Source: Hyphomicrobiales bacterium
Lineage (GTDB): Bacteria; Pseudomonadota; Alphaproteobacteria; Rhizobiales; Devosiaceae
Assembly (NCBI GenBank): GCA_027066315.1
Contig: JAMONZ010000043.1
Span: 1 to 43,209, forward strand
DNA length: 43,209 nt
Direction: 5' to 3'
In this document: positions 13,131 through 20,750 of the stretch, in pieces
How the letters are laid out: every line of letters starts with the position of its first letter
How positions within the stretch are numbered: the stretch's first letter is position 1
Program-made: the position numbers and the translations under genes
Notes under the pieces: model-generated
Database searches by the model: none
What the model was told of the DNA's origin: nothing
What the model saw: the letters and a program-made list of their open reading frames with translations, nothing else

Positions 13131-14045
13131 TTATTGTGCTATTTCGGCATCTTGCTCATGTTCTATCAAACGAACCACTAATTCATCATTTATACGAAGA
13201 TCAATTAATGACAAATCTCTATTAAGTAATGAATACTCATCTTGATAAGATGTTAATTTAGCCAATGCCTCTACAAAGCCAACCTCAGGTAGCTGTACCC
13301 GCAGCCCACTTTTATATATTAAATCCCATCGCCTATCAGCAATTCTAGAAATAGCTAAAAGCCCCTCATTTAAACTTGGATAATTTTTAAGAGCTAGAAC
13401 AATAGCGTTAGCATCATCACTAGCCCCCTCGCCAACAACCAATAATAAATCCTCATCTGCCCCATCAATAGAGCTAGCTAATTTTTTTCCTGTAGAATCT
13501 ATGACATAGGTTTTTCCTGCAATTCGCCAGCGGGCAACAGGTGTTTTTTCGACAATATTTATTATTATTTTATTGGGATAAGTTTTACGCACACTAACTG
13601 ACAAAACAGATGCCAGCTCCAATATTGAAGAGCGTGCATTTTTAACATTAAATAATAATGTTGACGTATTTTCATTTATTCCAAGCGATTTAACAATATC
13701 AGTTTCATTCGTTAAAGACTGTCCAGTAATTGAAATTTCATCTATTGAAAAACCAACATCTGCAAATGTTTTGTTTAATGCGAAGCCTATATTTTCTACG
13801 CCTTTATTCAAAAAATTTCGACTTTGAAATATAAAAACTGCCAGCAAAATAACTAGTAAAACCAACAAAGAACGTGTTAAAAGTTTTCTATGCAACACCC
13901 AAAATTGATTAATGGCCGTAAAAAAAGGCACGCCTTTTTTGCGGACGGATAGTTTTAAATTTGATTTATTTTTGGCGTTAGAAATGCCACTGGGCTTTGT
14001 TATTACAGCAGAAATATCATTACCATTCTGCCCTACCTGTTGCAA
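13131..14045 (-). CDS. ftsQ: Cell division protein FtsQ
   Basis: A bitopic inner-membrane protein linking the cytoplasmic and periplasmic parts of the divisome. A basic cytoplasmic tail is followed by one membrane helix (L-L-V-L-L-V-I-L-L-A-V-F), a POTRA domain starting near D-E-I-S-I-T-G, and a FtsQ beta domain with the K-T-P-V-A-R-W-R segment. I chose the TTG at 14045 because GGAGG lies exactly 7 bases upstream, giving 304 residues. A TTG at 14066 in the same frame would add seven residues but has no comparable site. Either way the start lies inside the 3' end of ddl, so the two are likely coupled. Confidence 0.9.
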   Translation of the reverse strand: MQQVGQNGNDISAVITKPSGISNAKNKSNLKLSVRKKGVPFFTAINQFWVLHRKLLTRSLLVLLVILLAVFIFQSRNFLNKGVENIGFALNKTFADVGFSIDEISITGQSLTNETDIVKSLGINENTSTLLFNVKNARSSILELASVLSVSVRKTYPNKIIINIVEKTPVARWRIAGKTYVIDSTGKKLASSIDGADEDLLLVVGEGASDDANAIVLALKNYPSLNEGLLAISRIADRRWDLIYKSGLRVQLPEVGFVEALAKLTSYQDEYSLLNRDLSLIDLRINDELVVRLIEHEQDAEIAQ

Positions 14046-14953
14046 CTCGCATCCTCCACAATCCAACTAACTAATTCAACAAAATCATGCCCACAATGAG
14101 CTGCTATTTCTGGCACTAATGATGTTTTTGTCATTCCGGGTTGAGTGTTTATCTCCAAGCAAACAAGCTCGCCATAATCATTACCAACATCATGAAAGCG
14201 AAAATCTGCCCGTGTTACACCCTTACAACCCAGTGCTTCATGCGCTTTTAGACTTAATTGCTGAATTTTTTCATAAATTTTTTGTGAAACAGGAGCAGGA
14301 AGTAGGTGTTTTGAGCCATTTTCTTCATATTTTGCTTCATAATTATAAAAATGCAAATCGGTTGTTATCTCTATCACACCAAGTGCAACATTCCCCATTA
14401 CAGCGCAAGTTAGCTCACGACCGGCAATAAACCGCTCAACCATTAATTCTTCACCCCCTCGCCACTCAGCACTCAAAATTTCTTGAATTGGCAAATCAGC
14501 TTCGCTCTTCACCAAAAAAATACCAACGCTAGAGCCCTCCGCTACGGGCTTAATCACATAAGGCGGCTTCATAATATGTTTTGAAGCAATCTCGCCTCGA
14601 GTAGCAATTATATGATCTGCCACAGGAATACCATTTGCCTTAAACAAAATTTTTGATTGATGTTTATCCATAGCCAGTGCCGAAGACAAAACTCCGCTAT
14701 GGGTATAGGGTATTTCAAGAATTTCTAGCAATCCTTGAATTATCCCATCTTCACCATAACGACCATGCAAAGCATTAAAAACCACATCTGGCTTAATGTC
14801 AGTCAGCTTTTGGGAAATATCACGCCCAACATCAATTTCAACCACATCATAACCAGCTTGGCGCAAAGCATCTGCACAAGCAGCACCACTATCAAGCGAA
14901 ACTTCACGCTCAACTGATAAACCACCTTTTAAAACTGCAACTTTTTTTGCCAT
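14033..14953 (-). CDS. ddl: D-alanine--D-alanine ligase
   Basis: An ATP-grasp enzyme of 306 residues that joins two D-alanines for the peptidoglycan stem. Motifs include the N-terminal V-L-K-G-G-L-S-V-E-R-E-V-S-L segment, A-L-H-G-R-Y-G-E-D-G, the P-Y-V-I-K-P nucleotide-binding lysine, E-G-S-S-V-G-I and the metal-binding end E-I-N-T-Q-P-G-M-T. Length fits the DdlB type found in dcw clusters. It lies between the DUF418-like gene (9-base gap) and ftsQ, which it overlaps. In most relatives murB directly precedes ddl, so the intervening membrane gene is unusual. Confidence 0.97.
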   Translation of the reverse strand: MAKKVAVLKGGLSVEREVSLDSGAACADALRQAGYDVVEIDVGRDISQKLTDIKPDVVFNALHGRYGEDGIIQGLLEILEIPYTHSGVLSSALAMDKHQSKILFKANGIPVADHIIATRGEIASKHIMKPPYVIKPVAEGSSVGIFLVKSEADLPIQEILSAEWRGGEELMVERFIAGRELTCAVMGNVALGVIEITTDLHFYNYEAKYEENGSKHLLPAPVSQKIYEKIQQLSLKAHEALGCKGVTRADFRFHDVGNDYGELVCLEINTQPGMTKTSLVPEIAAHCGHDFVELVSWIVEDASCNR

Positions 14954-14962
14954 TTATCTTAC

Positions 14963-15997
14963 CTAGCCTGTAACTTTTCTCAATAACCATTCAAGCGGAC
15001 CAGCATTGAAAAACTTCTTCCATATATTGGCATAAATGATTGAAGCAATTATAAACAGCAGGCTTGAAAAAACTGCCATTTGCGAAGTTTGATTGCTAAT
15101 CATTCCCAATGTTTCAAAAATACCCATTCCGATGATAATATGGGCAATATAAAGAGTTAGTGTTTGCTTGCCAGTAATAGAAATTGGTTTGAAAAAACGT
15201 ATAAAATTAAACGAATAAGCCCTAAGGCACAATCCGATGAGCAGTGATGCCGCCCCTGTTCCAGCAATCATATATAACGGCATAGGGGGAACTGGCTCTG
15301 TACTAGCTAAAAACACATCTTCACCAGCTAACAACGGCTGCAATAATGAAGACAGTCCATAAGCTACAATCAACAAGAAAGCACCAATAAAAATCATTAG
15401 CTTTTGCACTCGCTTTGAACTTAAATCTAACCTTGAAAGAAGCAAGCCAAACAATAAAAAGCTAAGCCATGGAATTACAGGATGCCAACCATTAAAGAAT
15501 AAATTTCTAATAAACCCCGTTAAAGTCCAAAACTTTGCATATTCATAAGTTTCCCAATTCCAACCCGCATCAAAATCAAACACCATAAGCAATGCAACAT
15601 AGATTATGGGCAAAATCAACGCTACCAATGCAATAGCTCGGCTAGATTGCCCAACCAACAGTAAAGCAAAGACAAAATATATTGCATAATAGTGCAAAAT
15701 ATCGGCTGGGAAAATAAGTGAATTTATCAAGCCAATGACAAATAAAAATAACGCTCGTTTTAAAATCGTAAGATTAAAATTATTGGAGGCTAGGCTATAG
15801 CCCATTCCAAGCCCAACTCCTGCTAATACCACAAAACTAGCCGCTGCTTTTCCTTCAAGCGTTAGAAGAAATATTTCAGCCCATTTTGCACCAGACCCAT
15901 CACCGATAACTACATGAAAATTTACTAACACCATGCCTGCAAAAGCAAAAAATCTTGCTAAATCTAACCCGTACAATCTTTCAGGCTGTGCCTTCAT
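14963..15997 (-). CDS. DUF418/YeiB-like multipass membrane protein inside the dcw cluster
   Basis: A 344-residue inner-membrane protein with about nine hydrophobic helices. The start (R-L-Y-G-L-D-L-A-R-F-F-A-F-A-G-M) matches the D-x-x-R first-helix motif of the DUF1624/DUF418 acyltransferase-like superfamily. The C-terminal part (T-G-K-Q-T-L-T-L-Y-I-A-H and the end G-P-L-E-W-L-L-R) resembles DUF418. Enzymatic activity is inferred at most. It is packed between murB (3-base gap) and ddl (9-base gap) on the same strand, so it is almost certainly co-transcribed with the wall genes. That suggests, but does not show, a role in modifying or moving an envelope glycan. Confidence 0.72.
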   Translation of the reverse strand: MKAQPERLYGLDLARFFAFAGMVLVNFHVVIGDGSGAKWAEIFLLTLEGKAAASFVVLAGVGLGMGYSLASNNFNLTILKRALFLFVIGLINSLIFPADILHYYAIYFVFALLLVGQSSRAIALVALILPIIYVALLMVFDFDAGWNWETYEYAKFWTLTGFIRNLFFNGWHPVIPWLSFLLFGLLLSRLDLSSKRVQKLMIFIGAFLLIVAYGLSSLLQPLLAGEDVFLASTEPVPPMPLYMIAGTGAASLLIGLCLRAYSFNFIRFFKPISITGKQTLTLYIAHIIIGMGIFETLGMISNQTSQMAVFSSLLFIIASIIYANIWKKFFNAGPLEWLLRKVTG

Positions 15998-16000
15998 TGC

Positions 16001-16978
16001 TTAAACCTTGCCAACGAAAACCTCACCATCAAGAAACTCATTCACCTGATTTTCAGGCTCAAATTTCCCCATTCGTCTTATTTCCCATTGCAATTCAACG
16101 CCAGAATTCTCTCGCACACGATGTCGCACTGTTTCACCTAATAACTCAATATCATAAGCACTTGCCCCACCAAGGTTTAGCAAAAAATTACAGTGTAATT
16201 CTGATACTTGCGCTTCGCCAATTTGCAAACCTCTACAGCCTGCCTCGTCAATTAATTTCCAGCTCGAATACCCATCAGGGTTTTTAAATGTTGAACCACC
16301 AGTACGAGATTTAATAGGCTGTGACTTCTCTCGCCTATCGGTTATCTGCTCCATACGGCTTATCATTTCGTCTGGATCACCAGTAAAACCTTGATATATA
16401 GCTGAAGTAAAAATCACTCCTTGAGGAGCGTTTGACTTGCGGTATTTATAGCCCATATCCTCATTACTAATCTTAACAATTTCACCTAAGCGAGTAACCC
16501 CACGCAATTCCACCATACGATCTCGTGTTTCAAGCCCATAACAACCCGCATTCATGTAAAGTGCGCCGCCAATCCCCCCCGGAATTCCCCGATAAAAAGT
16601 TAGGCCATCAATACCTGCGAGAGCCGCAGCTTTTGCCACTCTTACATCAGGGTTTGCTGCACCAACCAAAATGCGGTGATCTTCTAGCACCTTTATTGCA
16701 CCAAAACCTTTAGCTGAAAGTTTAATAACCACACCATCAAGCCCGCCATCACGAATTAGTAGGTTTGATCCCATTCCAATCACTGTGACTTTTATTTCTT
16801 TTGGCAAGTTTTTTAAAAAGAAAGCTAGATCTTCCTCATCAGCGGGTTGGAATAATAACGGCACAACTCCACCAACTCTAAACCATGATATTTCAGACAT
16901 TTTTTGATCTGGAGTAAGGCGACCACGAATTTTGCCAATCCAATCGCCCAATTTAGCTATAAAATCTGATGAACTCAT
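16001..16978 (-). CDS. murB: UDP-N-acetylenolpyruvoylglucosamine reductase MurB
   Basis: A flavoenzyme of 325 residues that reduces UDP-GlcNAc-enolpyruvate to UDP-MurNAc in the cytoplasm. FAD-binding motifs are visible: [14 protein letters not shown] and the [11 protein letters not shown] segment with its following N-A-G-C-Y-G. The catalytic serine lies in [11 protein letters not shown], and a C-terminal glutamate in V-E-L-Q-W-E-I-R-R. It lacks the extra loop of the E. coli type and so is the type II short form. Its ATG overlaps the murC stop by 4 bases. Confidence 0.97.
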
Positions 16979-18393
16979 GCCACTTCTCCACCAAGAAATA
17001 TTTCAAGCTCTTTGGGTAAATCCATTGCCCATTGAGTGATATTACCCGCCCCTAAAAACACTACATAATCTCCCTTAGAGCATCGCTTAGCTATGATTGA
17101 AGCTAGCTCTTTTGGCTCTTCAATGGTTTTAACATCACGATGGCCTAACGCTCGAATATTTCGTGCTAAATCTCTATGACCTCTACCTTGCATTGGCTTT
17201 TCCCCAGCTGCAAAAACAGGTGCAACAATAACGCTGTCTGCATCATTAAAGCAGCTTGAAAAATCCTCAAATAAATCATTTAGACGAGAATATCTGTGCG
17301 GCTGAACAATAGCAATAACATCTCGCTTGGTAGATTGGCGAGCAGCTTTTAAAACCGATGCTATTTCAACTGGGTGATGGCCATAATCATCAATGATTGT
17401 AATACCATTCACCTCACCTGTTTTAGTAAAACGGCGATTAACTCCAGAAAAGTTTTTCAAACCATTGCGAATTTCCTCTTCGCCAACCCCTAATTGAAAA
17501 GCAACCGCAATCGCCGCCGTTGCATTCATCACATTGTGTAGCCCTGGCATTGGGAGTTCCAAATTTTCAATTCTTTTTTCTTGCTTAGTAATTCTATCTC
17601 GCACCTCAATTGAGAAACGACTTATCCCATTGTCATTTTTCAAGTCACAAATTCGAACATCTGCTTGCGGGTTCTGACCATAAGTCACAACTCGCCTATC
17701 TTCAATCTGACCAACCAAAGCCTGCACCTCAGGGTGATCTAAACACATAACCGCAAAACCATAAAAAGGAACATTTTCTACAAAATTGATAAAGGCTTTT
17801 TTTAGCTCAGCAAAACTTCCATAATAATCAAGATGCTCAGGATCAATATTTGTTACCACAACCACATCTGCAGGCAATTTTATGAATGTGCCATCACTCT
17901 CATCTGCTTCAACCACCATCCACTTGCCTGCACCCTCACGAGCATTAGTGCCATAAGCGTTGATAATACCGCCATTTATAACTGTTGGGTCAATATTCCC
18001 AGCATCAAGCAAAGCCGCAACTAGTGAGGTTGTTGTTGTTTTACCATGTGTGCCGCCAATAGCTATTGCATTTTTAAAACGCATAAGCTCTGCTAGCATT
18101 TCAGCCCGCCGCACAACAGGCAAACCAAGCGCACGAGCCGCTCTTAATTCAGGATTATCTTTTTTAATAGCCGATGAGATAACAATAACAGCACTATCTT
18201 TTAGATTTTCTGCTCTTTGTCCAATTTCAACCTCTATCCCCATATCAAGCAAGCGTCTTACATTAGCACTCAAATTCATATCAGAGCCACGAACAGTATA
18301 ACCCTGTCCATGCAAAATTTCTGCAATTCCACTCATGCCAATTCCACCAATTCCAATAAAGTGGACAGGGCCAATATCTTGAGGCATTTTCAT
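16975..18393 (-). CDS. murC: UDP-N-acetylmuramate--L-alanine ligase MurC
   Basis: The first Mur ligase, adding L-alanine to UDP-MurNAc with ATP; 472 residues. The N-terminal Rossmann domain has [11 protein letters not shown]. The central ATPase domain has the P-loop [10 protein letters not shown] and the conserved E-A-D-E-S-D-G-T-F. The C-terminal domain has D-D-Y-G-H-H-P-V-E and R-Y-S-R. AAGGAA lies 8 bases before the ATG. It is placed between murG (16-base gap) and murB (4-base overlap), the usual order. Confidence 0.98.
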
Positions 18394-20696: not shown

Positions 20697-20750
20697 GAAA
20701 CCATACTTAAGCTATAAATAATTAAAGGCGAGTGAAATTATTTACGCTCA

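Follow-up and report, generated by a model that had tools for sequence, protein, structure and literature searches.

A DUF418 (YeiB/HGSNAT-type) acyltransferase-family gene between murB and ddl in the wall operon of a Devosiaceae lineage

Human HGSNAT (heparan-alpha-glucosaminide N-acetyltransferase) belongs to the YeiB/HGSNAT family of the TmAT superfamily; for another member, E. coli YeiB, we know of no tested function. The AT3 proteins OafB and OatA (PF01757), with their DxxRx10H motif, belong to the same superfamily. PMC12423673 lists as TmAT residues a DxxR in TMH1, an FxxxxG in TMH2, an Arg in TMH3, a Gly in TMH6 and a Tyr in TMH9, and describes fungal GWT1, an inositol acyltransferase, as having neither the D of DxxR nor a catalytic His. 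In HGSNAT, the catalytic His is H269 in the first luminal loop, according to PMC11357348. Literature searches in one PMC library on DUF418, YeiB, HGSNAT in bacteria, Devosia peptidoglycan and murB/ddl together with acyltransferases yielded neither a DUF418 gene in a mur operon nor a tested substrate for DUF418/YeiB proteins.

A gene of this kind is embedded among wall-precursor genes in the 43,209-nucleotide stretch of a Devosiaceae genome analysed here (contig JAMONZ010000043.1 of GCA_027066315.1), which we call the window. The gene and its immediate neighbours are as follows.

13131..14066, minus strand: ftsQ ORF, TTG start as listed, overlapping ddl by 34 bases (Pfam FtsQ)
14033..14953, minus strand: ddl, the downstream neighbour, gap of 9 bases (Pfam D-Ala-D-Ala ligase; Dala_Dala_lig_C 156 bits)
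14963..15997, minus strand: DUF418 / YeiB-HGSNAT-type TmAT acyltransferase gene, 344 aa, ATG start (ORF list, Pfam, model)
16001..16978, minus strand: murB, the upstream neighbour, gap of 3 bases (Pfam MurB; MurB_C 110 bits)
16975..18393, minus strand: murC, overlapping murB by 4 bases (Pfam Mur ligase domains; named from gene order and sequence)

Pfam also confirms an FtsW/RodA domain among the neighbours. The initial annotation had placed the gene 3 bases from murB and 9 bases from ddl, and the ORF coordinates agree, with all three genes running in the same direction; this packing makes co-transcription of murB, the DUF418 gene and ddl likely. No terminator-like site was found on the minus strand from the murB stop to the ddl start. 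Two promoter-like sites lie on that strand inside the DUF418 gene (15174-15146 and 14983-14956), in a region where such sites as a whole occur at chance level (27 found against 28.8 expected from shuffles). The codon use of the gene is the least typical among the 12 cluster genes compared, with a correlation of 0.79 against 0.80 for murB and 0.82 for ftsZ, and its GC content, 0.374, lies below the window mean of 0.386.

The encoded protein is a DUF418 (YeiB/HGSNAT-type) member of the TmAT superfamily. It scores over the Pfam cut-offs for HGSNAT_cat across residues 7-194 (32.3 bits against 22) and for DUF418 (PF04235) across residues 194-343 (52.5 bits against 23.6). The match to AT3 (Acyl_transf_3, PF01757) is weak and stays below its cut-off (23.8 bits against 31); unlike the AT3 proteins, the window protein has Asn in place of the His of DxxRx10H, and it carries no extra domain. 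It shares the DUF418 domain with E. coli YeiB but falls far below the YeiB equivalog cut-off (NF008093, 30 bits against 325), and is therefore not classed as YeiB. Neither the protein sequence nor a 77-row profile of its relatives matched any solved structure up to E 10. The predicted model, built from 77 sequences (pLDDT 94, pTM 0.93), has the 10-helix core fold of the TmAT superfamily, if ten of its helices, one of them bent, are taken as membrane-spanning. Foldseek returned nine matches to the model at E<=0.001, of which seven are titled HGSNAT; the others are 8jkv, which PMC12423673 identifies as HGSNAT, and 8jl4, titled only 'membrane proteins'. A second structural comparison gave Z 25.1 over 296 residues for human HGSNAT and 17.6 over 305 residues for GWT1, whose fold is that of the model, with the next entry at 7.9. 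The proposal of an acyltransferase-like DUF418 family is thus borne out by both the profiles and the model.

Conserved positions were read from an alignment (A2) of 77 rows, comprising the window protein and 76 of the 80 loci fetched from named genomes with 6 kb flanks. Omitted were L119, L125 and L142, which are 97, 89 and 96 % identical to L116, L116 and L140, and L093, which has one stop in the stretch. All of the TmAT residues are invariant in the 77 rows (D12xxR15, F55xxxxG60, R81, G184 and Y283), as is the HGSNAT-type Asn, N26, the counterpart of HGSNAT N258 at the end of the first core helix that faces the lumen. The window protein therefore shares with human HGSNAT the core membrane fold, the DxxR, the Asn of the first core helix, the FxxxxG, the Arg of helix 3, the Gly of helix 6 and the Tyr of helix 9, but lacks the luminal domain. 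It also differs in having no conserved counterpart of H269: across the 77 rows, we found no conserved His between residues 27 and 50, the place that H269 would occupy, with at most 4 of 77 rows carrying His in any column within the loop and 8 of 77 just before it. The chemistry of HGSNAT is therefore not directly transferable. Other positions are fixed in all 77 rows, namely H102, H172, H286, N169, W177 and the P237-P238 pair, and E48 is kept in 69. Lys and Arg number 15 in the stretches taken as cytoplasmic and 3 in those taken as periplasmic; judged from helix order and these charges, H102, H172 and H286 would lie towards the periplasm.

Full-length orthologues (E below 1e-80) are present in 17 of the 136 genomes of the window's family. 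Seven of these, from three genera, have the order murB-DUF418-ddl, the synteny whose conservation the initial annotation had proposed to check; these seven copies have no stops and retain the conserved residues intact. The other ten holders carry the gene elsewhere. The initial annotation would have abandoned its idea for a gene confined to this genome and atypical in codon use; we find the gene at this place in seven genomes, and the codon use of the window copy is close to that of murB. A ddl homologue is present in 60 of the 61 genomes searched. Across the class, the 77-row profile matches 8 genomes in a sample of 385 at E<=1e-40, counting that of the window. The window's genome, 98.7 % complete, yielded no further DUF418 match.

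Within the window's genus, two of the five genomes carry the gene, and murB and ddl are adjacent in the three others (G001, G002 and G003), with aligned gaps of 147, 94 and 30 bases, respectively. The G001 gap retains a remnant, identical at 26 of 27 bases to a stretch near the end of the window gene, with a score that none of 1000 shuffles reaches. No remnant was detectable in the G002 and G003 gaps, for which 176 and 766 of 1000 shuffles did as well against the window gene and 69 and 855 against the gene of G004. A decayed C-terminal piece of the gene (47 bits) is also present in a genome of another genus, G028. The murB-ddl gaps of three further genomes (G019, G017 and G014; loci L042, L046 and L049) are 170-197 bases long and contain GC-rich, palindromic-looking stretches, perhaps a dispersed intergenic repeat. 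At L039, L054, L057 and L058 (genera g15 and g16), the nearest matched gene before ddl is murC and not murB.

The gene is constrained much as ftsA and ftsW are. In a comparison of the window with G004, differences at second codon positions divided by those at third positions give 0.32 for the DUF418 gene, 0.32 for ftsA and 0.30 for ftsW; murB (0.27), ddl (0.22) and murC (0.19) give lower values, and ftsQ a higher one (0.46). Because an orthologue without stops occupies the same place in six other genomes and diverges as ftsA and ftsW do, the ORF is no chance ORF. In the ddl tree, carriers and non-carriers of the window's genus (two and three genomes) are intermixed, so that, if there was one insertion, about three losses are the simplest account of this genus. 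Nor do the three genera with carriers cluster together in this tree, and the carrier label needs four changes (shuffled mean 7.9; G008 was scored 'absent' from 1061 bases ahead of ddl that lack the gene), so a single insertion requires further losses or later transfer. The DUF418 tree unites the seven murB-ddl copies with one further row, L079, in a single group (SH-aLRT 98); L079 shows no dcw gene in its 8.6 kb. We take the wall operon to have probably captured the gene once. Overall, the DUF418 tree is poorly resolved, with 41 of its 82 inner branches open, and families are intermixed in it, as would be expected of a mobile gene, though this is no proof of one.

Outside the wall operon, relatives of the gene occupy varied places and usually stand alone. 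Neighbour counts from the 80 loci are rough, since a simple gene caller, error-prone in GC-rich DNA, gave no DUF418 ORF at eight of them. Several loci are also the same as genomes of the family set and are not extra evidence (L075=G004, L077=G023, L078=G015, L108=G007 and probably L076=G061), and three of the seven class-wide matches other than the window's genome are loci of the sample (G411, G356 and G352, as L085, L106 and L148). The broadest recurrent neighbour is a TetR-type gene, found near 17 of the 80 loci in two groups of 12 and 5; ten are divergent and seven co-directional. One L116-type regulator scores just under the TetR_N cut-off (22.8 against 24), and two others of its group score over it. 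At L090, L097 and L133, the DUF418 gene is immediately preceded by a fatty-acid-hydroxylase gene (gaps of 6, 11 and -4), which separates it from a divergent TetR gene. A profile of the main TetR group (A3), which itself contains two Maritalea rows from the window's family, matches 8 of the 136 family genomes at E<1e-60; all eight hold an orthologue of the DUF418 gene, and in seven the two genes are adjacent and divergent. Among orthologue holders, this TetR is present in 8 of the 10 genomes with the gene outside the wall operon versus none of the 7 with it inside (Fisher 0.002; this test and a second TetR test, at 1e-8, treat related genomes as independent), and the seven murB-ddl genomes have no A3 match even at 1e-15. 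The seven other class-wide matches, in stretches of 6.6-14 kb, have neither a TetR of either group nor dcw genes nearby.

Genes of the dcw cluster occur in the flanks of 7 of the 80 loci, which represent two lineages: five belong to the window's family and were already counted, and two are Lentibacter loci in which a divergent DUF418 relative lies beside ftsW. Linkage to wall genes was seen in one lineage between murB and ddl and one Lentibacter lineage beside ftsW, with the rest elsewhere. An Octadecabacter MAG (L092:5998-7035) has a relative co-directional between a Pfam-less ORF and a thioesterase-TolQ-TolR set, at gaps of 9 and 11, and three Maritalea genomes have the DUF418 gene just upstream of TolQ-TolR with the TetR gene divergent. 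Pfam families of the neighbours checked are thioesterase, MotA/TolQ/ExbB, ExbD/TolR, RecA and FtsW; the names ybgC (for the place of the thioesterase at L092), tolA and tolB and the murC/murG order are our assignments from sequence. Of 59 placement groups, 4 lie beside dcw and tol-pal genes where 0.4 would be expected (Poisson 0.0008), and 2 beside dcw genes alone where 0.30 would be (0.04); these statistics are post hoc, the loci having been picked afterwards, and use approximate genome fractions. On these statistics, the tol-pal and ftsW placements hint at the envelope. The point is weakened by a place within a few kb of recA, which also recurs in two lineages (L109 and L129). A murC match in L104 was considered as a wall neighbour and not counted, as it is weak (32-33 %).

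We favor as probable a reading in which the window gene encodes an accessory TmAT acyl-CoA-dependent acyltransferase with a periplasmic acceptor, captured by the wall operon. In this reading, the enzyme activity, the direction of transfer and the topology are inferred. The protein would bind acyl-CoA from the cytoplasmic side, thread the acyl group through the helix bundle and deliver it to a periplasmic acceptor at a putative transfer site formed by E48, H102, H172 and H286 with several aromatic residues. The gene would be an accessory one of patchy occurrence, with a TetR-type regulator beside it in some of its relatives; one Devosiaceae lineage would have gained it between murB and ddl, in genomes with no such TetR. 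Insertion there would put its expression under that of wall synthesis, and the product would probably be made together with the wall-precursor enzymes. The most likely acceptor is a glycan or lipid of the envelope, and peptidoglycan precursors are among the candidates. Absence from close relatives and varied contexts point to an accessory role in the envelope or in lipids; the gene looks optional, and wall synthesis is not its proven task.

A dedicated wall enzyme, whose periplasmic substrates would be peptidoglycan, lipid II or undecaprenyl carriers and whose capture by the mur operon would reflect that role, would account for a tightly spaced murB-ddl placement kept in three genera, for constraint like that on ftsA and ftsW, and for the relatives beside ftsW at two Lentibacter loci and in tol-pal at one Octadecabacter locus and in three Maritalea genomes. 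The window's genome also has no match to MBOAT (PatA type), and one other AT3 protein over the cut-off. We nonetheless think such an enzyme unlikely, because three of the five genomes of the genus do without the gene, none of the seven class-wide matches is near dcw genes, and the recurrent place near recA indicates that repeated places are not peculiar to envelope genes. With the gene absent from most genomes of the genus, dcw placements few and a TetR-type gene rather than a wall gene as the broadest neighbour, the suggestion in the initial annotation that a wall or lipid-carrier role explains the placement finds no confirmation here, although such an acceptor is possible. Quite unlikely in our view is its most specific form, in which an enzyme of HGSNAT type would acylate peptidoglycan precursors or the undecaprenyl carrier in the periplasm, using H102, H172 and H286 as a new catalytic set instead of the loop His; operon capture would have tied it to wall synthesis in this family, with parallels in the tol-pal and ftsW placements of other Alphaproteobacteria.

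The recurrent TetR genes, and the hydroxylase genes directly upstream at three loci, could instead point to acylation of a hydroxylated membrane lipid or of some harmful compound sensed by TetR. This is possible but doubtful, as the hydroxylase is confined to those three loci in one part of the tree, no TetR accompanies the seven class-wide matches and neither gene is found in the operon of the window's lineage. That the gene is a neutral hitch-hiker, inserted by chance, tolerated and now decaying, agrees with its patchy presence, its absence from close relatives and the remnants in two genomes, but is very unlikely for a gene whose seven syntenic copies are all intact and whose divergence matches that of ftsA. 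For the accessory acyltransferase that we favor, relatives with and without the gene at a single wall-operon site, together with a TetR partner elsewhere in the family, offer a clean route to the acceptor. Should the acceptor prove to be wall material, the modification would be of a new kind; otherwise, the locus shows an accessory, probably regulated envelope gene coming under growth-linked expression.

The wall cluster of the window is also missing murD, at 20697-20750 between mraY and ftsW. A murD over the family cut-off is present on another contig of the same genome (G000:C93), and murD lies away from murC, on another contig or at a distance of ∼200 kb, in all seven genomes of the window's family that were searched. 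In four genomes of other families, murD scores higher and lies within ∼4 kb of a murC-like match.
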